This document shows, piece after piece, positions 55,076 to 64,000 of a stretch of DNA of 64,000 nt. The stretch spans positions 5,800,001-5,864,000 of the forward strand of contig NZ_JARUBO010000005.1 in assembly GCF_029626235.1 (NCBI RefSeq), read 5' to 3'. Position 1 is the stretch's first letter. Every line of letters starts with the position of its first letter. The position numbers were made by a program, and so were the translations under genes. The notes below the pieces were generated by a model. The model was not told the origin of the DNA. It was given only the letters and a program-made list of their open reading frames with translations, and did not search any database. Source of the stretch: Micromonospora sp. WMMD1120. GTDB lineage: Bacteria > Actinomycetota > Actinomycetes > Mycobacteriales > Micromonosporaceae.

Positions 55076-55648
55076 TCAGCCGAGGTGCCGACCGGCCCAG
55101 TCGGCGAGGTCGCGGGCGCACGCGTCCACCGACTCCCGCCAGGTCCGGGCGGCGCCCTCCCCCGCCTCGTCGCTGACCTGCTTCACCAGCCGGCACGGCA
55201 CACCGGCCTGCGCGGCGGCCCACGCCACCGCGTACCCCTCCATGTCGACCAGGTCGGCGCGCCGGGCCAGCCGGTCGCGGGCCGTGTCGTCGGCCACGAA
55301 CGTGTCACCGGTGGCCAGCACCACGCCCTCGTCGGCGAGGGACAGCGGGGCCCCGTACGTCTCGCCGGTGAGGGTCCGCAGCAGGTCGGTGTCCAGGTCG
55401 TGCTGGAGCACGGTGGCGACCTCGTGGATGCCGACCAGCCCCGGACGCAACGCCCCGGCCGTGCCCAGGTTGAGCAGCAGGGACGGGCGCGGACCGGCGG
55501 CCAGCGCCGCGGCCACCGCGCTGGCGGCGTTCACCTTGCCCATGCCGGTGAGCAGCACCGGCACCTCGGGCGGCAGGTAGCGGGCCTCCTCCCCGACGGC
55601 GAGGACCACCAGCGGACGATCGGCGCGGACCGTACCCCGAAGATTCAC
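55076..55648 (-). CDS. nucleosidase (5'-methylthioadenosine/S-adenosylhomocysteine type)
   Basis: 190 residues, shorter than typical 230-residue MTA/SAH nucleosidases. The PNP-UDP phosphorylase fold shows VLLTGMGKVNAASAVAAAL, LLLNLGTAGALRPGL, and the substrate block VDMEGYAVAWAAAQAGVPCRLVKQVSDEAG (ME-G ribose contact and catalytic Asp in SDEA). It hydrolyses the glycosidic bond of an adenosine-like nucleoside. Exact substrate is uncertain. Single gene with its own terminator. Confidence 0.87.
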   Translation of the reverse strand: MNLRGTVRADRPLVVLAVGEEARYLPPEVPVLLTGMGKVNAASAVAAALAAGPRPSLLLNLGTAGALRPGLVGIHEVATVLQHDLDTDLLRTLTGETYGAPLSLADEGVVLATGDTFVADDTARDRLARRADLVDMEGYAVAWAAAQAGVPCRLVKQVSDEAGEGAARTWRESVDACARDLADWAGRHLG

Positions 55649-55692: not shown

Positions 55693-56154
55693 TCAGTCAG
55701 CGGGCCGGACGGCGACGACCTGCCCTCCGCTGGTCTCGCCGGTCGGGCGGAAACCGAGTTTGAGGTAGAACTCCTCCGGGCCGTCCGCACCCGACTCCCA
55801 GGTCGTGTAGACGTACTCACGCCCGCGTCGGCGGGCCTCCGCACGGACGGCGTCCACCGCGAACCGGCCGTACCCCCGCCCCTGGTGGTCGGCGGCGATG
55901 TTCAGCCGCCACAGGCCGGAGCGGAGGTCGTCCGGCCGGTCCCACTCGATGTCGAAGAACCCCATCAGGAAGCCGACGATCTCGTCACCCTCGCAGATCA
56001 GGCGTGGCCAGGCGATCTCGGGCTGGACGTACGCCTCGGCGAGGGACCAGGCGACCGGAGACGAGTATTTCTCCTGCTCCGGTCGCACCGTCAGCCGGCA
56101 CGCGTCCTCGACGTTGTGTTCCGTGATGGTCACCAGTCTGGGCACGGTCGCCAC
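55693..56154 (-). CDS. GNAT family N-acetyltransferase
   Basis: 153 residues. RLVTITEHNVEDACRLTV opens; LWRLNIAADHQGRGYGRFAVDAVRAEARRRG is the acetyl-CoA-binding motif A with Q-G-R-G-Y-G. VYTTWESGADGPEEFYLKLGFRPTGET completes motif B, and the ending GGQVVAVRPAD is like spermidine/diamine acetyltransferases. The acceptor is probably an amine, not certain. It begins one base after the TetR gene stop (56156), so the two are likely cotranscribed. Confidence 0.9.
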   Translation of the reverse strand: MATVPRLVTITEHNVEDACRLTVRPEQEKYSSPVAWSLAEAYVQPEIAWPRLICEGDEIVGFLMGFFDIEWDRPDDLRSGLWRLNIAADHQGRGYGRFAVDAVRAEARRRGREYVYTTWESGADGPEEFYLKLGFRPTGETSGGQVVAVRPAD

Positions 56155-56155
56155 C

Positions 56156-56968
56156 CTAGCGAACCGGGTTCACCAACAGTCCGTCGAGCAGCGCGCCCAG
56201 ACCGAAGTGGAACCAGGTGTCGAGGTCGGTGTCGAGCCTGGTCTGACCGGCCGCCGCCAGCCAGGGCCGTCGCCGGGCCCGGCCGGTGCGCTCCAACCGG
56301 TCGCGGGTCGCCGACCACCAGACGTGGTACGGCAGGTCGACGGGATCGCGCCGGATCAGCAGGGCCATGCCCTGCACGTAGCCGCTGAGCGCCAGGTAGG
56401 CGCGGAACGCCCCGGCGGGGTCGTATCCGGCGGCGGTGAACGCCGCCACCACCCGGTCGACCATGGCGAGCACTGCCGGGCCGGTCGGTGGCCGGTCGGT
56501 CGCGAGGACGGTGAGCAGCCAGGGGTGTTCGCGGTACATCGTCCACTCGTCCTGGGCCAGCCGTTCGAGCCGCTGACGAGGGTCCGGTGGCGGACCCATG
56601 TCGCCGGGCACGGGAACGGCGGTCACCCGCTCGGCCATCGCGCCGAGCAGTTCGGCCCGGTTGCGCAGGTGCCGGTACACCGCGTGCGCGGGCATCGCGG
56701 CGTGGTGGGCGAGGAGCAGCATGGAGACAGCGTCCAGACCGCCGGAGTCCGCCAACTCGACAGCGAGACCGATCAGCCGCTCGCGGGGGTCGGCGCCGGT
56801 GGGCCCGGACAGCTCGGGGGCGGGCCGCGGCGCGGTCGTCGGACCGTGGTCACGGCGCCTGCGGTACGCACGGGCCTGACAGCCTCGGGAGCAGTAGCGA
56901 CGGGGGCGCCCTCGGCCGGAGCTGGCGGGCAACTCGCACTCGCACTCGACACATCGAGCGGTGAGCAC
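56156..56968 (-). CDS. TetR family regulator with N-terminal zinc-ribbon-like motif
   Basis: 270 residues from GTG 56968, chosen because GGAGG lies five bases upstream; an ATG at 56989 is the alternative. Residues 6-34 (CVECECELPASSGRGRPRRYCSRGCQARAYRRR by key residues C-x2-C and C-x3-C) form a probable zinc-binding knuckle found on a group of actinobacterial TetR proteins. The HTH follows at about 62-110 (LAVELADSGGLDAVSMLLLAHHAAMPAHAVYRHLRNRAELL). The C-terminal ligand domain contains LSGYVQGMALLIRRD. Its target is unknown; the cotranscribed GNAT gene is a candidate. Confidence 0.88.
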   Translation of the reverse strand: MLTARCVECECELPASSGRGRPRRYCSRGCQARAYRRRRDHGPTTAPRPAPELSGPTGADPRERLIGLAVELADSGGLDAVSMLLLAHHAAMPAHAVYRHLRNRAELLGAMAERVTAVPVPGDMGPPPDPRQRLERLAQDEWTMYREHPWLLTVLATDRPPTGPAVLAMVDRVVAAFTAAGYDPAGAFRAYLALSGYVQGMALLIRRDPVDLPYHVWWSATRDRLERTGRARRRPWLAAAGQTRLDTDLDTWFHFGLGALLDGLLVNPVR

Positions 56969-57078
56969 AGCCACCTCCACTTTCGTCACGGCAGAGCGCG
57001 CGCCGAAAGTACTGCACCCCGCCGCGCTCGACGGACAGGATCAAAGACATGAATCCGTCCGGCCGCAGGACGCGCCCG

Positions 57079-57804
57079 TCAGGACGGGGTGGGTTCGGCG
57101 GCGTCCGGGCAGCGGCTGGAGAGGGCGTAGCGCAGCAGCACCACGTCACCGATCTGGCGGGCCTCGGCCAGTCGGGCCCGGCGGCCCGGGTGCCAGGGGA
57201 AGGTGCCCTCGCCGACGAACCGGGGCGCCCGACCGTCGCCGACGAAGAACGGGGCGACCACCAGGTGCAGCTCGTCGGCGAGGCCGGCGGCGAGGAACTG
57301 GGCGTGCACCGTCCCGCCGCCCTCCACCATCAACCGCCGTACGCCCCGCCCGGCCAGGTCGGCGAGCAACCATTCCGGGTCGACCGGCTCACCCGCGTCG
57401 ACGACGGTGGCCAACCCGCCGATCCGTTCCCGGGTCTTCTCCAGCGCCCCGCTCGCGCAGTAGACGAGGCGGGCCGACTCGCCGACGGTGAAGAACCGGG
57501 CGGTCGGGTCGAGGTCACCGTGGGCGGTCAGGGTGACCTTGATGGGCGAGGCGGGCCGACCGGCCGCCACCCGTGCGGCCCGTCGGTCCGGCGCGCGGAC
57601 CAGCAGCCGGGGGTCGTCGCGGCGAACGGTGCCGGCGCCGACCAGGATCGCGTCGCAGCTCGCCCGCACCGCGTCGACCCGGTCCAGGTCGTCCTCGTTG
57701 GACAGCAGCAACCGCTGCTCGGAGGCGTCGTCGATGTACCCGTCGATCGAGGTGGCGCAGCTCAGCAGCACGTACGGCCGGATCGTCCCCGCCGGGCAGC
57801 TCAT
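57079..57804 (-). CDS. RibD C-terminal (reductase) domain protein, stand-alone
   Basis: 241 residues. The DHFR-like fold is evident in RPYVLLSCATSIDGYIDD, RASCDAILVGAGTVRRDDPRLLVR and LMVEGGGTVHAQFLAAGLADELHLVVAPFFVGD. In bifunctional RibD this domain reduces the ribosyl group of the aminopyrimidine with NADPH. The deaminase domain (HAE and PCxxC motifs) is absent here. It overlaps ribA by four bases, so it should act on the RibA product or a derivative. It is the last gene of the seven-gene run from 62743. Confidence 0.92.
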   Translation of the reverse strand: MSCPAGTIRPYVLLSCATSIDGYIDDASEQRLLLSNEDDLDRVDAVRASCDAILVGAGTVRRDDPRLLVRAPDRRAARVAAGRPASPIKVTLTAHGDLDPTARFFTVGESARLVYCASGALEKTRERIGGLATVVDAGEPVDPEWLLADLAGRGVRRLMVEGGGTVHAQFLAAGLADELHLVVAPFFVGDGRAPRFVGEGTFPWHPGRRARLAEARQIGDVVLLRYALSSRCPDAAEPTPS

Positions 57805-58439
57805 TGCGACGTCTCCGCCGCCTTCGCCGCCTTCGCGGCGAGGTAGTCGGCGTTGGCCGACGACAGGAAGACGCTGGTGGGTAGCCGTTCGGCGACGCCG
57901 ACGCCGAGCCGGTTCAGCTGCTCCTCCTTGTCCGGGTTGCTGCTCAGCAGCCGGATGCGTGGTACGCCCAGCGTGGTCAGCATCTGCGCGGCGGCGCTGT
58001 AGTCCCGCTCGTCCTCGCCCCGGCCCAGCGCGACGTTGGCCTGGTAGGTGTCCAGCCCCGCGTCCTGCAACGCGTACGCGTCGAGTTTGGCGTAGAGGCC
58101 GATGCCACGCCCCTCCTGCCGGAGGTAGAGCAGGAAGCCGCCGGCCTCGGCGATCCGCTGCACCGCCTCGCGCAGCTGCGGCCCGCAGTCGCACCGCTGG
58201 CTGCCGAACACGTCGCCGGTCAGGCACTCGCTGTGCGGGCGGACCAACGGCGGTTCGCCACCCGCGGCGAGCCGATCCAGCGCGCCCGCCCAGTCGCCGA
58301 GACCGAAGGCGAGGTGCTCCCGACCGTCCACCAGGCCCTTGAAGGAGAACACCCGCGCCACTGTGGCGTAGCCGTCGGGGAATCTCAGCGGCACTGTGAC
58401 CTGGGTACGGATCGTGGCAATCGGCAATGCTTCGGGCAT
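57801..58439 (-). CDS. ribA: GTP cyclohydrolase II
   Basis: 212 residues. It opens the imidazole ring of GTP, releasing formate and pyrophosphate. Zinc ligands C72, C83 and C85 are in SECLTGDVFGSQRCDCG, and LLYLRQEGRGIGLYAKLDAYALQDAG is the GTP/catalytic block. Y122 in AYALQD corresponds to E. coli Tyr105. That tyrosine is reported to be replaced by Met in S. coelicolor SCO6655, which stops at the formylated product; its presence here predicts the normal deformylated product. Start ATG 58439, GGAGG six bases upstream. No DHBP synthase domain is fused, unlike many actinobacterial RibBA proteins. Confidence 0.95.
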   Translation of the reverse strand: MPEALPIATIRTQVTVPLRFPDGYATVARVFSFKGLVDGREHLAFGLGDWAGALDRLAAGGEPPLVRPHSECLTGDVFGSQRCDCGPQLREAVQRIAEAGGFLLYLRQEGRGIGLYAKLDAYALQDAGLDTYQANVALGRGEDERDYSAAAQMLTTLGVPRIRLLSSNPDKEEQLNRLGVGVAERLPTSVFLSSANADYLAAKAAKAAETSQ

Positions 58440-58497
58440 GGGGTTCCTCCGTCCGGCGCCACCGACGTCCGGCGGCGCGTACCGTCTCACCACTGAC

Positions 58498-59436
58498 TCA
58501 ACAGCCGCCGTCGGGGGCGGCTTCCCGGGCGGCGACCGGGACGCGACGCCGCCGGGCCAGCAGCACGGCGGCGCCGGGCAGGCTCGCCACCAACACCAGC
58601 GCGCCGTAGACGGTGGCGGTGGCGACGCCCTCGGCCGCGCTGAGACCGGCCGCGCCGAACACCCAGGCGGCCACCCCCTCCCGGGGGCCGAAGCCGGCGA
58701 CGTTCAGCGGCAGGCCCATGGCCAGCAGGGCGAGCAGGGTCAGCGGCAGCAGCCGTGCCAGCGGGGCGTCCGATCCGGCGGTGCGGGCCGCCACCAGGAA
58801 GGTGGCCAGGTGACCGGCGACCATCACGGCGGACGCGATCAGCACACCGAACCAGGTGCGCCGGGCCAGCAGCCCGGACCGCACGTCCGTCACGGCGGTC
58901 CGCAGCCCCCGCGCCCAACGCGAGCGCCCCGCCTCCGGCACCGCGCGGGCCAGCAGCACGGTGACCAGACCGCCGGCGACCAGCAGCGCGGCCGCGAGTG
59001 GCAGATACTGCCGCACCGGCGACGGGAACGCCGCGAGCACCACCAGCGCGACGCCGAACAGGACCACCTGCCCGGCGGTACGCTCCCAGACCACCGCGCG
59101 GATGCCCCGGCTCACGTCACCGGCGTCGCGACCGTGGCGGACCGCCCGGTGCACGTCGCCGAGCATCCCGCCGGGCAGCGTGGCGTTGAGGAACACGGCC
59201 CGGTAGCAGTGCGCCACCGCCGTCGACAGGGGCAACCGCACGCCCAGGCCCCCGGCGACCAGGCTCCACCGCCATGCCGCGCAGACAGTGGTGAGCACCC
59301 CGATGACGAGCGCCGCCGCCAGTGCGGGCGCGTCGATGAGGCGTACTCCGGCGAGGAACGGCCCGGTGCCCACCTGCCACAGCAGGACGGCGAGCAGACC
59401 CGCCCCGCCGACCACTCGCGCCCAGGCCCAGACCAT
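58498..59436 (-). CDS. lysylphosphatidylglycerol synthase TM-region-like (flippase-type) membrane protein
   Basis: 312 residues with about eight spans. The stretch HCYRAVFLNATLPGGMLGDVHRAVRHG and LTLLALLAMGLPLNVAGFGPREGVAAWVFGAAGLSAAEGVATATVYG (key motif GPREG) are diagnostic of the UPF0104/LPG_synthase_TM family, whose members move lipids or glycolipids across membranes. The catalytic LPG-synthase soluble domain is absent. Start: ATG 59436, preceded by GGGAGG nine bases upstream, rather than the GTG at 59466. Its position in a glycosylation/methylation cluster suggests export of a lipid-linked or amphipathic product. Confidence 0.88.
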   Translation of the reverse strand: MVWAWARVVGGAGLLAVLLWQVGTGPFLAGVRLIDAPALAAALVIGVLTTVCAAWRWSLVAGGLGVRLPLSTAVAHCYRAVFLNATLPGGMLGDVHRAVRHGRDAGDVSRGIRAVVWERTAGQVVLFGVALVVLAAFPSPVRQYLPLAAALLVAGGLVTVLLARAVPEAGRSRWARGLRTAVTDVRSGLLARRTWFGVLIASAVMVAGHLATFLVAARTAGSDAPLARLLPLTLLALLAMGLPLNVAGFGPREGVAAWVFGAAGLSAAEGVATATVYGALVLVASLPGAAVLLARRRRVPVAAREAAPDGGC

Positions 59437-59500
59437 CGACGCCGGCCTCCCTTGAAGATCGTCCACTTGCCCTAGTCCACGTACCCCGCGTGGGATCGGT

Positions 59501-60319
59501 TCATCCTCCGGCGAGGAGGTCGATGTGCTCGACCCGTACCGCGAGCCGGCCGGCCGCCGCGTCGGCCAGCCGACGTCGGGCGTACGGCCGGGCCGGGCCG
59601 GCCAGGTCGGGCCGCTGTTCGCAGGCGGCCCCGAGCCAGCCCGTGAACCACTCGGCGGTCAGCTCGGCGTGCTCCGGGCCGAGGAGCCACGGGCTGGGCC
59701 GCTCCCGCACCTCGACGCCGTGCCGGGTGAACGCCGCGACGGTGGCGGCGACGGCGTCCGGGCCGAGCAGTCGCCGGCCGTCGACGGTACGCCGCTGGTG
59801 GTCGTTGAACGCGGCATCGACGGTCTCGTCGAACGGGTCGGCCGGGGTGAGCCGGACCCGGCCGGTCACCGAGACGGCGAAGAGGGCGGGGTGACCGACG
59901 CAGGCGGCGACCACCCGTTCGACCTCCTCCAGGGTCAGCATGTCCAGCAGCGCGGACGCGGTGACCAGGGTGGCGTCGGCGAGGTCGGCACCGGTCAGCC
60001 GGGTGAGGTCGCCGCGCCGGGTGCGGACGGTGACCGGGGCGCCGTCGGCGGCCCGTATCCCGGTCATCCCCTCGGCGGCTCTGGCGAGCAGGTCGGCGTC
60101 GCGGTCGTGCAGCACCCAGTGCTGCGGTCCGGGCAGCCGGGTGGCCAGCCAGCGCGCCATCGAGCCGGTGCCGCTGCCCAGGTCGTGGATCACCATCGGC
60201 GCGTCACCGACCAACCGGGGGCGGAGGGCGTCCAACAGATCCTCCGCGCGGGCCGCCGCGTCGGCCGGCTCGCGCAGCCGCAGCCACTCGGCGAACGGCA
60301 CTGTCTCCTCGGCGGTCAT
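59501..60319 (-). CDS. class I SAM-dependent methyltransferase
   Basis: 272 residues. Motif I is MVIHDLGSGTGSMARWLATRLP, followed by the acidic WVLHDRDADLLARAAEGM and a motif IV-like LADATLVTASALLDMLTLEEVERVV. The C-terminal half (FDETVDAAFNDHQRRTVDGRRLLGP) is cluster-specific. It would methylate an O, N or C of the cluster product. It overlaps the glycosyltransferase gene by four bases and is followed by a 64-base gap to the membrane-protein gene. Confidence 0.87.
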   Translation of the reverse strand: MTAEETVPFAEWLRLREPADAAARAEDLLDALRPRLVGDAPMVIHDLGSGTGSMARWLATRLPGPQHWVLHDRDADLLARAAEGMTGIRAADGAPVTVRTRRGDLTRLTGADLADATLVTASALLDMLTLEEVERVVAACVGHPALFAVSVTGRVRLTPADPFDETVDAAFNDHQRRTVDGRRLLGPDAVAATVAAFTRHGVEVRERPSPWLLGPEHAELTAEWFTGWLGAACEQRPDLAGPARPYARRRLADAAAGRLAVRVEHIDLLAGG

Positions 60320-61362
60320 CCCGCCACCTCCTTCAGCACGGCGGCCAGCAGCGCGGTGGTCACCGGCCAGTCGGTCAGGGTGTCGCGCCGGGCGAGGGCG
60401 GCCCGCCGCAGCCGGGCCCGCAGCGCCCCGTCGTCCAGCCAGCGGGTCAGCGCCCTGGCCAGCGCGGCGCTGTCGCCCGGGGGCACCAGCAGCCCCGGCA
60501 GCTCGCCGTCGGGGGCGCGACCGAGCGCCTCCGGCACACCGCCCACCCGGGTGGCCAGCACCGGCAGGCCACGGGCCAGCGCCTCGGTGACGACCATCCC
60601 GTACGTCTCGCCGCGCGAGGGCAGGACCAGCAGGTCGGCGTCGGCGTACGCGGCGTCCAGGGCCGCCCCGGTCAGCGGGCCGACGAGCCGCGCCCGCCCG
60701 GTGAGGCCCGCCGCGTCCAGCCGGTCACGGAGCCGGCGCACGAGATCCGGCTCCCGGGCCAGGGTGCCCGCGCCGACCATCGTCCAGGACCGGCCGGCCA
60801 GCGTGGACAGCGCGTCGACGAGCACGTCGTACCCCTTGTGCTGGGTGACCGCCGCGACGCAGAGCAACCGGTCGCCGGCCGCGGACCCGGGCGCGGGCGG
60901 CGCCGGCCGCACCCCCGGGGGCGCGGCCCGGACCCGGTCGGCGAGCGTCGGGTGGCGCGTCGCCAGGTGTTGGCGGGTCCACTCGCTGGTGGTGACGACG
61001 GCGCGTGCGGCGGCCAACGCGTGGGCCTCCGCCTCGTCGTCGAGCGGCAGGTGCACCAGGACGACCAGCCGCAGCCGGCGGGCGTGCGCGGCGAGCAGGT
61101 CGGGCACCGTCGAGGCGATCAGACCGTCGATCAGGACCACGGCGTCGTCGGGCGCGGCGGCGAGCACCCCGGCCAGCGCCGCCCGGGCGGCGGCGTCGGG
61201 GTGCGGCCACCCGCCGGGTACGGCGTGCTCGCGCACCGTCCAGCCGTGCTCGCCGAGCCCGGCGCAGATCCGCCGGTCGTAGGAGTTGCCGCCGCTCGGG
61301 GTGGCCGGGTCGTCGATGTCACCGGGCAGGACGACGTGCGCCGCCCGGCCCGCGTCGGTCAC
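60316..61362 (-). CDS. GT4-type glycosyltransferase
   Basis: 348 residues from GTG 61362. GT-B fold: acceptor side [33 protein letters not shown]; donor side [23 protein letters not shown], and the nucleotide-sugar motif [37 protein letters not shown] with the E-x7-E pair. It retains the anomeric configuration of an NDP-sugar donor; donor and acceptor are unknown. It overlaps the pterin-synthase-like gene upstream and the methyltransferase gene downstream, which strongly suggests a shared product. Confidence 0.9.
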
Positions 61363-61763
61363 AGGGGCCGCTCGTAGCTGGCCCAGGCGATGTGCGACTC
61401 GTGCAGGGTGACTGTGACACCGGCCAGGTCGCGCGCGCCCGGGCCCAGCTCGCCCGCGTGCACCCGCTCGACCAGCCGGTCCGCGACCGTCCGGGCCAGC
61501 ACCTCGGTGGTGGTGTTCACCCCGGCGAACGCCTGCTCGTCGTCGAGGTTGCGGTAGGTCAGCTCGCCCAGCACCGCCCGTAGCTGCTCGGTGGCCAGAC
61601 CGATGTCCACCACGATGCCGTCGGCGTCCAGGTCGGGCCTGCGGAACGTGGCGTCCACGACGAACGTCGCGCCGTGCAGGCGTTGGGCGGGGCCGAACAC
61701 CTCGCCCCGGAAACTGTGGGCGATCATCATGTGATCCCGAACGGTCACGCTGAACACTGTCAC
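61359..61763 (-). CDS. 6-pyruvoyl-tetrahydropterin synthase / QueD-fold protein lacking catalytic residues
   Basis: 134 residues. Matches to the family: [57 protein letters not shown] and [17 protein letters not shown]. Of the three zinc histidines, H16 and H30 are present, but the HGH motif is HGA (A32). The catalytic cysteine is missing, since the whole protein has no cysteine, and the HHxxLN histidine is replaced in TYRNLDD. The substrate-anchoring E122 remains. I recall similar HGA-type sequences in Streptomyces, so this looks like a conserved variant group rather than local decay. It overlaps both neighbours by four bases. Confidence 0.88.
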
Positions 61764-62743
61764 TCCCCGTCGTCGTAGGTGATGAGGTGGCAGAGGGCGG
61801 GCAGCTCACCCGAGGTGAGGTCGGCGAGCACGTCGGGCAGGTCGGCGAACCGGGACGCGCCGGTGATCAGGGCGTCGAAGGCCGGGTCGTCGAGCAGGTC
61901 CAGGGCCAGCGCGAGCCGGTCGGCGTAGCTGCGGCGCCCGCGCCGGGCCGGGGCGACCATGCCGACCTGGCTGCTGCGTACGGTGAGTCGTCCGGAGTGG
62001 AACGCGCCGCCCAGGGACACCTGCACCGGGCGGTCGCCGTACCAGCTCAGCTCGATGACGGTGCCCTCCGGGGCGAGCAGGTCCAGAGCCTGTTGCAGGC
62101 CGGCGCCGGTGGCGCTGGCGTGCACCACCAGGTCCCGGTCGCCGGACGCGTCCCCCGGGCCGGCGAAGTCGACGCCGAGCGCGCCGGCCACCCCGGCGCG
62201 GCGGGCGTCGGTGTCGACAAGCTCCACGTGCACGCCGGGGAAACGGGCGAGCAGCGCCGCCACGCAGCACCCCACCATGCCCGCGCCGATGACGGTGACC
62301 CGGTCGCCGAGCAGCGGCGCGGCGTCCCACAACGCGTTGACTGCCGTCTCCACGGTGCCCGCGAGCACCGCGCGGGCGGCCGGCACCCCGTCCGGGACCG
62401 GCACCACGGCGGTGACCGGCACGACGTACGCGCTCTGGTGCGGGTGCAGGCAGAACACCGTACGCCCGAGCAGGTCGGCGGGGCCCTGCTCGACGACGCC
62501 GACGCTGAGGTAGCCGTACTTGACCGGGCCGGGGAAGTCACCCTCCTGGAAGGGCGCGCGCATCGCGGCGTACTGGTCGGTCGGCACCCGGCCGGCGAAG
62601 ACCAGCGTCTCGGTGCCCCGGCTGACGCCGGAGTAGCGGGCCTGGACCAGCACCTCGTCCGGTCCCGGGGCGGTCAGGGACACCGGCCGGATCTCCGCCA
62701 CGCCGGGCTCCCGAACCCAGCAGGCGTACGCCTCGCGGTTCAC
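61760..62743 (-). CDS. zinc-type alcohol dehydrogenase-like oxidoreductase
   Basis: 327 residues from GTG 62743, with GAGG nine bases upstream; an ATG at 62788 is less likely. The MDR fold shows [41 protein letters not shown] and the Rossmann motif [32 protein letters not shown]. The catalytic-zinc cysteine usual after the first strand (CGSD) is replaced by SRGTET, so classical zinc alcohol chemistry is doubtful; it resembles the bacteriochlorophyllide/threonine-type variants. First gene of the seven-gene run, sharing a divergent promoter region with the surface-protein gene. Confidence 0.85.
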
Positions 62744-62887
62744 CGTCGCGCACCTCACCCTCTGCTGCGGGCCACACCGTTCGGCCATGTCCGGCTCCCC
62801 CGGTCGGGTTGTCGATCATAGACACGGAGGTACGACGTCGGCAGTTCGACGTTCCTCCGAGTCAGCGAGTAGGACAAAAGCGACTTA

Positions 62888-62910: not shown

Positions 62911-62942
62911 TCCCGTCGCACAGGCGAACCAACGGGGGCGTG

Positions 62943-64000
62943 ATGAGGATTTCGTGGTGGGATGGCCGCAGGCCACGGGCGACGGCGCTGATCGCGGTCG
63001 GCGGCGTGCTGGCGCTCAACGGTCTGCTGGTGCCGACGCCCGCAGCGCCCACATTGGCCAACCGAACGCTGGCCGCGGTTGACGAGGCCGTCGGGCCGGT
63101 CGACCCGGTCGCCGCGGCGCTGAGCTTCGGGGTGATGACCGAGGGCGACGCCAACGTCGTCAACGACGAGAACGAGGGCACCCTCGCCGTCGGCGGTAAC
63201 CTCACCTTCGGCAACTACCAGCTCGCCGGGGTGACCGCCGGATCGTTCGTCGTGCCCGGCGACGCCAACCCGAGCGCCCTGGTCGTGGGTGGACGGGTGA
63301 ACTTCGCCGGCAGCGTCGGCGGCAGCCGCCTCCAGGTGCTGTCCAACGGCTACGCCAAGGTCGGCGACCTGACCGGGACCTTCGTCCGCGACACCGACAA
63401 CAACGGGGCACAGGTCAACACCCGGATTCTGCCGGCGAACAACTACGACGCCTCCCCCCGGGTCGAGCTGGTCACCCGGCAGCCCGTCGCGAGCGTCGGG
63501 CCCACCTCGCCGATCAACTTCGGGGCCGCCTTCGCCAGCTTCCGGGACACCACCGCCAGCCTCGCGACCTGCGACAACACGGTGGTGCTGCGGACTCCGA
63601 ACGGGGACGTGCTGCCCCGACCGATCCCGCCGGGCAGCAACGCCGTCGTGACGTTGACCCCGGGCGTGACGAACGTGCTCAACCTGAGCGCGGCGGACCT
63701 GGCCAACATCCAGATCCTGACCTTCGCCAGCCAGCCGACCGCCAGCACCCCGCTGCTGGTCAACGTGGACACCAGTGGGGTGGGCAACACGTTCGCCTGG
63801 ACCGCGCCGAACTTCGCCGGAATCGGCGGCGCGCAGGCCCGCTACGTGCTGTTCAACTTTCCGACCGCCACCGCGCTCACCCTCACCCCGAACGCCGCCA
63901 CCGTCGAGGGCAGCATCTACGCCCCCAACGCCAGCCTCACCGACCTGTCCGCCAGCAACACCGAGGGCAGTGTCATCAGCCGTACGCTGGACCACCGCGG
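62943..64000 (+). CDS. choice-of-anchor A family surface protein (partial, runs off window)
   Basis: 352 complete codons are visible from ATG 62943, with GGGGGCG as a possible ribosome binding site. A signal peptide covers about residues 1-35 (ATALIAVGGVLALNGLLVPTPAAP). The mature part begins AALSFGVMTEGDANVVNDENEGTLAVGGNLTFGNYQLAG and later FTASTPLLVNVDTSG-like and VEGSIYAPNASLTDLSASNTEGSVI stretches (in the sequence, SQPTASTPLLVNVDTSG), which characterise the choice-of-anchor A domain. Such proteins are exported and anchored by various C-terminal signals; the anchor lies beyond the window. Function at the surface is unknown. Confidence 0.88.
   Translation, partial: MRISWWDGRRPRATALIAVGGVLALNGLLVPTPAAPTLANRTLAAVDEAVGPVDPVAAALSFGVMTEGDANVVNDENEGTLAVGGNLTFGNYQLAGVTAGSFVVPGDANPSALVVGGRVNFAGSVGGSRLQVLSNGYAKVGDLTGTFVRDTDNNGAQVNTRILPANNYDASPRVELVTRQPVASVGPTSPINFGAAFASFRDTTASLATCDNTVVLRTPNGDVLPRPIPPGSNAVVTLTPGVTNVLNLSAADLANIQILTFASQPTASTPLLVNVDTSGVGNTFAWTAPNFAGIGGAQARYVLFNFPTATALTLTPNAATVEGSIYAPNASLTDLSASNTEGSVISRTLDHR

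Follow-up and report, generated by a model that had tools for sequence, protein, structure and literature searches.

Enzymes of the RibA/RibD type (GTP cyclohydrolase II and a RibD-type reductase) are reused outside primary metabolism in the toxoflavin pathway, and those of the QueD type in the toyocamycin pathway; to our knowledge, neither pathway joins both enzyme types with an oxidoreductase of the medium-chain dehydrogenase/reductase (MDR) superfamily, a family 4 glycosyltransferase (GT4) and a CDP-alcohol phosphatidyltransferase (PT). We analysed a run of seven genes of Micromonospora sp. WMMD1120 which unites RibA, RibD, a QueD-fold protein (hereafter PTPS), an MDR and a GT4 with a methyltransferase (MT) and a flippase-like protein. 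The window, i.e. the whole analysed stretch of 64,000 nucleotides, corresponds to C5:5800001-5864000 within a genome of 7.15 Mb, and the run occupies its positions 57079-62788 on the minus strand. We propose, with middling confidence, that this cluster provides the biosynthetic half of a hitherto uncharacterised route to a pterin-type, glycosylated and usually methylated compound, which would be linked to lipid or displayed on the envelope.

The closest described systems each cover a part of the cluster. The archaeal entry into riboflavin and F420 synthesis (GTP cyclohydrolase III, ArfB and diaminopyrimidinone reductase) resembles the route proposed here in that GTP is opened, deformylated and reduced before deamination, an order that we infer for our case; it differs in that the window uses RibA and that the cluster contains neither a deaminase nor a later flavin or F420 gene. 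Streptomyces coelicolor SCO6650 (PDB 3d7j) is the orthologue of the window PTPS (E 1.1e-64), and reportedly possesses neither zinc nor PTPS activity. The signature FGPAQ defines group PTPS-IV of COG0720, and PF00925 and PF01872 occur in its genomic neighbourhood, according to a section of the AGeNNT paper (2017, PMC5445326). Part of this neighbourhood was thus already noticed in 2017 without a product; the same section makes no mention of an MDR, GT4, methyltransferase, flippase-like, phosphatidyltransferase or sulfatase gene as a partner.

In gene order, the run starts with the MDR (61760..62788, 342 aa), which is BchC-like but far below the BchC cut-off. It is followed by the PTPS (61359..61763, 134 aa; PF01242, assigned to the PTPS-IV type by 3d7j and the family alignment), the GT4 (60316..61362, 348 aa, with an E-x7-E motif and a GTG start lying within the PTPS stop) and the MT (59501..60319, 272 aa; class I, S-adenosylmethionine-dependent, PF13649). 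The flippase-like membrane protein of the LPG_synthase_TM family (58498..59466, 322 aa; PF03706, 100 bits), RibA (57801..58439, 212 aa; PF00925, and PRK00393 with 241.9 bits, above cut-off) and a RibD_C reductase without deaminase domain (57079..57804, 241 aa) complete the run, all on the minus strand. All seven frames display GC content at third codon positions of coding type (0.91-0.97). The gene families, the single strand and the order given in the initial annotation were hence all confirmed, and four of the six junctions indeed overlap by four bases; the remaining two gaps, described there as about 60 bases each, measure 34 and 58 bases (junctions in gene order: -4, -4, -4, +34, +58 and -4), the former, between MT and the flippase-like gene, widening to about 63 if the latter begins at an internal ATG.

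The expectation that these neighbours would be kept together in other genomes was borne out. RibA was used as a query against a genome collection and the best 80 of 534 relatives were fetched, so that the presence of RibA in these loci is by construction; gene content was assessed by profile searches on stop-to-stop open reading frames (ORFs), with shadow-ORF families from neighbour clustering disregarded. MDR and PTPS occurred together in 59 of the 80 actinobacterial loci, mostly from Micromonosporaceae, and all 59 also contained GT4, the flippase-like gene and RibD. The MT was found in 56 and missing in three, from which it follows that methylation is optional. The exact gene order of the window was retained in 37 clusters, ribD was inverted in 16, and six represented other variants. 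In Micromonospora sp. ATCC 39149 (L025, 5.4-11.5 kb), MDR and RibD are each split across two ORFs, a result of sequencing errors or decay. As for the other 21 loci, eight were cut by contig ends and 13 carried RibA alone, in Blastococcus, Geodermatophilus, Microbacterium, Nocardioides, Pimelobacter, Kineococcus, Kibdelosporangium and others. RibA of these 13 loci (L029, L046, L053, L054, L056, L064, L070, L071, L075, L077, L079, L080 and L083) is 72-79% identical to that of the window.

Searches with the other genes extended the distribution considerably. PTPS matches at E <= 1e-10 were present in 34 of 396 genomes of the phylum, and loci were fetched for 30 of these matches. Of 20 more distant PTPS loci (L094-L113, 34-41% identity), 18 had an MDR in the same short locus, and 16 of these 18 also contained RibD. 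Eight out of eight longer loci of f18, a family of another class (L114-L116 and L121-L125), harboured the order RibD-MDR-PTPS-GT4 flanked by FolB, a dihydroneopterin aldolase, and a phospholipid-type acyltransferase. The loci of family f28 (L100/L126 and L110/L127), with a PTPS match and no MDR, are likely to encode ordinary QueD and were left aside. In a plasmid collection, 30 records gave tblastn matches to MDR and 21 to PTPS, the hosts comprising Streptomyces, Rhizobiaceae, Methylosinus, Rhodobacterales, the gammaproteobacterium Thiodictyon, Microbacterium and Arthrobacter, and haloarchaea for MDR. PTPS accompanied MDR in every examined region around the plasmid MDR matches except that of Natrarchaeobaculum. 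MDR/PTPS-type loci were found in Streptomyces too, in agreement with the initial annotation. Two Streptomyces plasmids (L148 and L149) bear orphan genes of PTPS type, around which neither MDR nor any further gene of the cluster was in view; these were excluded from the alignments.

Residues retained in RibA, together with enzyme replacements in other lineages, make likely the route from GTP to a 2-amino-pyrimidine that had been suggested for the cluster. The window RibA keeps the three zinc-binding cysteines (motif SECLTGDVFGSQRCDCG, 58182..58232, minus strand) as well as the tyrosine of KLDAYALQ (residues 118-125). In a tree of 30 rows, where long branches leave some joins unsure, RibA of the Micromonosporaceae clusters grouped with a stand-alone actinobacterial type, that of the Streptomyces clusters with rib-operon and f18 RibA, and that of the Rhizobium/Agrobacterium clusters lay far off. 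In three of seven haloarchaeal loci (Haloarcula halophila, H. pelagica and Natrarchaeobaculum), a gene annotated as GTP cyclohydrolase IIa directly precedes the MDR and overlaps its start; the one of these that was profiled, from H. halophila, matched PF05165 (GCH_III) with 271.7 bits. A fourth case, Haloarcula sp. GH36, was seen among the plasmid MDR matches. This placement of the non-homologous GTP cyclohydrolase III in the slot of RibA is strong evidence that the pathway begins from GTP.

Another replacement is represented by Streptomyces. The tyrosine is changed to methionine in all five Streptomyces loci and retained in the other 25 of the 30 rows, and a creatininase gene is present in six loci, i.e. 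in these five and in Haloarcula marismortui. BrbF, a member of the creatininase family, has been proven to remove the formyl group from the formylated intermediate in Sinorhizobium meliloti, and SCO6655 is annotated as GTP cyclohydrolase II (PMC9478397 and PMC2853524, respectively). Other Streptomyces loci are arranged as PTPS, GT4, MT, flippase-like, creatininase and RibA, which agrees with the numbering SCO6650-SCO6655; SCO6655 is therefore probably the cluster RibA of S. coelicolor. The methionine-type GTP cyclohydrolase II of this species, which according to Spoonamore and Bandarian reportedly stops at the formylated product, is presumably the same protein. The window RibA differs from this type in that it keeps the tyrosine and no creatininase was found with it. 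As the Streptomyces loci form one lineage, their methionine-type RibA and creatininase count as one event. In chemical terms this is still sensible, as the diamino compound lacking the formyl group is accessible regardless of the enzyme that opens GTP.

The second step points to the same compound. RibD in the window consists of the RibD_C domain only, whereas RibD of the rib operon carries a deaminase domain as well. Its nearest curated model is that of the archaeal diaminopyrimidinone reductase (TIGR01508, 133.1 bits, under the cut-off of 186.45) and the best-named of its matches in the PDB is 6p8c, a 2,5-diamino-6-ribosylamino-4(3H)-pyrimidinone 5'-phosphate reductase. In a tree, it was placed apart from RibD of proteobacterial, f18 and other non-Micromonosporaceae clusters. 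No RibD was detected within the flanks covered in any of the seven haloarchaeal loci. The diamino-ribityl compound is an ordinary intermediate of the archaeal riboflavin route, and if this is the compound needed, absence of RibD from haloarchaeal loci is to be expected. RibD is also missing from four of five Streptomyces loci; an orthologue (54-60% identity) was present elsewhere in all six genomes of the Streptomyces family (f4) that have a close MDR, in a sample of 30 genomes, nine with a close MDR and 21 without. In five of the six, a second window-type RibA is located close to this orthologue, far from the cluster. Over the whole sample, RibD orthologues at E < 1e-60 occurred in eight of nine genomes with close MDR versus three of 21 without (G050, G235 and G246; p = 0.0002, without phylogenetic correction). 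The genome of the window itself contains 13 RibD_C-domain matches, most of them unexplained paralogues. Taken together, the patterns of enzyme swaps and residues across lineages argue for 2,5-diamino-6-ribitylamino-4(3H)-pyrimidinone 5'-phosphate as an intermediate.

The third conserved component, the PTPS, agrees with the published PTPS-IV description: FGPAQ is present in the window protein (residues 23-27; codons at 61683..61697, minus strand) and in 15 of the 22 proteins aligned, with deviations in those of f18 and haloarchaea, and PF00925 and PF01872 genes occur in its neighbourhood. His16, His30 and Glu122 are invariant in all 22 members; we take Glu122 to be the pterin-anchoring glutamate. 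The QueD motif CxxxHGH is not retained, as no member has a cysteine at the respective position and the window protein reads HGA; the second histidine of HxH is alanine in 15 of 22 members, and is kept in three f18 and four haloarchaeal ones. The earlier statement that QueD-fold proteins handle pterins therefore applies with a caveat, because the window protein lacks the QueD/PTPS catalytic cysteine and one zinc histidine.

For the remaining proteins of the run, the assumed roles in glycosylation, methylation and transport are derived from protein families only. Among 24 aligned MDR members, family-specific invariant residues are present but no cysteine is invariant, from which we conclude that a conserved cysteine zinc ligand is missing. 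AlphaFold2 models displayed a generic MDR fold (pLDDT 79.0) and a generic class I fold of the MT (pLDDT 93.1); these match superfamilies only and do not suggest a substrate class. A large protein search with the MDR added no function, as among the 120 matches listed, from a maximum of 8000 candidates scored, nearly all were Streptomyces proteins with generic dehydrogenase names. A simple hydropathy scan indicated seven hydrophobic segments in the flippase-like protein.

The seven genes proved to be an incomplete picture, as further partners are encoded outside the window. About 160 kb from the cluster, locus L160 contains genes for the PT (C5:6023505-6024431; PF01066, the sole PT match in this genome), a sulfatase/lipoteichoic acid (LTA) synthase-like membrane protein (C5:6021748-6023460; PF00884 with 27.3 bits, cut-off 25, preceded by five hydrophobic segments) and an FkbM methyltransferase. 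The PT possesses the CDP-OH motif DxxDGxxAR-x8-Gx3Dx3D, and its best curated match is archaetidylinositol phosphate synthase. In both respects it resembles enzymes of actinobacterial and archaeal lipid synthesis of the phosphatidylinositol-phosphate type, from which it differs in lying far below the cut-off of that model (24.7 versus 180 bits). The sulfatase-like protein gave no NCBIfam match and only a chance-level match in a PDB sequence search; a relative in Paracoccus is annotated as a member of the LTA synthase family. In the 59 clusters, the PT adjoins 46 and the sulfatase-like gene 24, while in 13, including the window species and several of its relatives, the PT is not beside the MDR. 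Both genes were also present in the Rhizobium, Peteryoungia, Agrobacterium and Thiodictyon loci.

Within the phylum, the PT was detected at E < 1e-20 in nine of 396 genomes, which are exactly the nine with an MDR at E < 1e-100; three further matches (G246, G045 and G321) were weak. The sulfatase-like protein was found in eight genomes, all within the nine. Fisher's p was 2e-18 for the PT, 6e-16 for the sulfatase-like protein and 5e-7 for the PT collapsed to genera, all three being inflated by relatedness. Since the PT lies on a separate contig in G008 and, in Streptomyces genomes, the sulfatase matches are distant from the cluster or placed on different contigs, this represents co-occurrence and not only linkage. 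With these partners, a product linked to lipid or the envelope becomes likelier than a free glycoside. A gene for the periplasmic glucan glucosyltransferase MdoH is located by the MDR cluster or the PT module in three alphaproteobacteria (L132, 7079-8881; L143, 7082-8995; L162, 6493-8058), which is a hint at a link to periplasmic glucan.

According to the pathway we propose, RibA would open GTP to 2,5-diamino-6-ribosylamino-4(3H)-pyrimidinone 5'-phosphate, which the deaminase-less RibD would reduce to 2,5-diamino-6-ribitylamino-4(3H)-pyrimidinone 5'-phosphate, the 2-amino group being kept, unlike in bacterial riboflavin synthesis. The PTPS-IV protein may bind this 2-amino-4-oxo-pyrimidine or a pterin derived from it and, with the MDR, build the ring or side chain in its final form. 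The GT4 would then add a sugar and the MT would usually methylate the product, while the PT, the sulfatase/LTA-synthase-like protein and the FkbM methyltransferase of L160, together with the flippase-like protein, might link it to a phospholipid and/or display it outside the membrane. Gene content, conservation, co-occurrence and residues are shown directly by the analysis. The first two steps draw on family and residue evidence, the substrates of RibA and RibD being inferred from their families; everything later is inferred too, including which sugar is added, where the methyl group sits, how the product is joined to lipid and what its biological role is.

The available evidence has to be weighed against other explanations. 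One is a flavin function, RibA and RibD being families of the riboflavin pathway. The initial annotation had excluded a riboflavin operon on account of missing genes, and rightly so: deaminase, DHBP synthase, lumazine synthase and riboflavin synthase domains were found neither in the seven genes nor in the next three, and a complete set of rib genes (bifunctional RibD, riboflavin synthase, RibBA and lumazine synthase) forms one run at C5:4.5138-4.5180 Mb. The only two PF00925 matches of the genome are in that run and in the window. Because a full rib operon exists elsewhere, the cluster is not one for riboflavin biosynthesis. Neither a lack of other ribA/ribD genes nor unconserved neighbours, the outcomes named in advance as telling against that annotation, was observed. 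Paralogues could still feed additional riboflavin or flavin for secretion, modified by the other genes, and such modularity is known in Sinorhizobium (PMC9478397). The same missing genes, the absence of a deaminase domain from the cluster RibD and the conserved pterin-type PTPS, which would be left unexplained, render this improbable, and SCO6655 is among genes expressed counter to predicted riboflavin flux in S. coelicolor (PMC2853524). According to that paper, the majority of the genes so listed go up in stationary phase, and as SCO2687, another GTP cyclohydrolase II, shares the list, the expression of SCO6655 is weak evidence. A role of PTPS-IV in F420 synthesis, assigned for archaea on the basis of unpublished work (Zallot et al. 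2016, PMC5041015), would be compatible with the early riboflavin-type precursors common to both. This published suggestion agrees poorly with the data, and we regard such a role as very improbable: CofH/FbiC above cut-off was present in eight of nine genomes with close MDR versus 17 of 21 without (p = 1, no association, in the 30-genome sample), G008 harbours MDR, PTPS, GT4 and PT yet no CofH above cut-off, and bacterial PTPS-IV may differ from the archaeal protein meant. Least credible of all is that the PTPS is an ordinary QueD or PTPS of a queuosine/deazaguanine or biopterin route. While it matches PF01242 and its relatives are annotated in databases as 6-carboxytetrahydropterin synthase, this identity was rejected on the residues described above; the QueD model yields 34.6 bits versus a cut-off of 89, and no queC, queE or queF product is listed next to the PTPS in annotated loci.

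A doubtful but more serious possibility is that the product is a soluble specialised metabolite, i.e. a glycosylated and methylated pteridine or aminopyrimidine that is released, and that the PT and the sulfatase form an unrelated envelope module in shared hosts. The precedents of toxoflavin and toyocamycin would agree with this, as would the absence of the PT from all eight longer f18 clusters. On Rhodobacterales plasmids (L161-L164), moreover, the PT family occurs without MDR or PTPS in view, alongside cytochrome b561, the sulfatase/LTA synthase and an ABC transporter, with a flippase-like gene in two loci, mdoH in one and GT4 in part. A strong PT match is also missing from 34 of the 43 genomes in which an MDR was matched, namely those with weaker MDRs, so that the two halves are separable. 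Other observations likewise weigh against a single pathway as we propose it. RibA was present in five of five Streptomyces, four of seven alphaproteobacterial, one of eight f18 and none of seven haloarchaeal longer loci outside Micromonosporaceae, and was missing by profile from the Thiodictyon, Microbacterium, Arthrobacter and G008 loci, although the riboflavin pathway of the host could supply the compound in such cases. The G008 and Arthrobacter loci are reduced to MDR-PTPS-GT4, and Natrarchaeobaculum has GTP cyclohydrolase III and MDR with no PTPS in view. The creatininase of S. fungicidicus fits mycofactocin MftE (141 bits, cut-off 172) better than ArfB (37 bits, cut-off 180), and the co-occurrence p values take no account of relatedness. 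What speaks against a released metabolite is that the PT and the close MDR share the same nine of 396 genomes even where they are unlinked, that the PT adjoins 46 of 59 clusters, and that every one of these 59 contains the flippase-like gene.

Other genes near the cluster appear to be of local character. A regulator of the TetR family, whose N-terminal part contains a cysteine-rich stretch (CVECE...CSRGCQ), is located directly downstream at 56156-56989, followed by a GNAT acetyltransferase (55693-56154) and a nucleosidase (55076-55648; PRK05634, above cut-off), the last two being kept in near relatives only. The three (56989-55076) were considered as pathway genes and rejected: TetR, GNAT and nucleosidase are present in only four, six and four of the 59 clusters, respectively, and are hence treated as local neighbours. 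Just upstream of the MDR, a long divergent ORF occupies window positions 62940-64000 (12940-17793 in L003, where it encodes 1617 aa) and resembles what we take to be a secreted surface protein of the choice-of-anchor-A type. Other Micromonospora instead carry the PT and the sulfatase-like gene on this side of the cluster.

No product of this gene set was found in the open-licence literature. In its furthest form, which we advance as speculation and think unlikely, our proposal of an envelope-linked pterin would imply that the envelope contains molecules of a new class. Their head group, a reduced ribityl-pterin or a diaminopyrimidine, would be glycosylated and methylated and joined to a phospholipid by the PT; after outward transport, the sulfatase/LTA-synthase-like protein might transfer it to a glycan of the periplasm or the surface. 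Such a molecule might serve across actinobacteria, proteobacteria and haloarchaea as a membrane-anchored redox or light-absorbing cofactor, perhaps reduced by cytochrome b561, which is present in several proteobacterial loci. Organisms as different as haloarchaea, Streptomyces and Rhizobium have retained a GTP-consuming set, in which enzymes were exchanged between lineages and partners preserved even where unlinked, and for these reasons its product should be useful. The pathway would also give the structurally solved orphan SCO6650 a place, and from it follow predictions of one specific intermediate and of a product linked to lipid.

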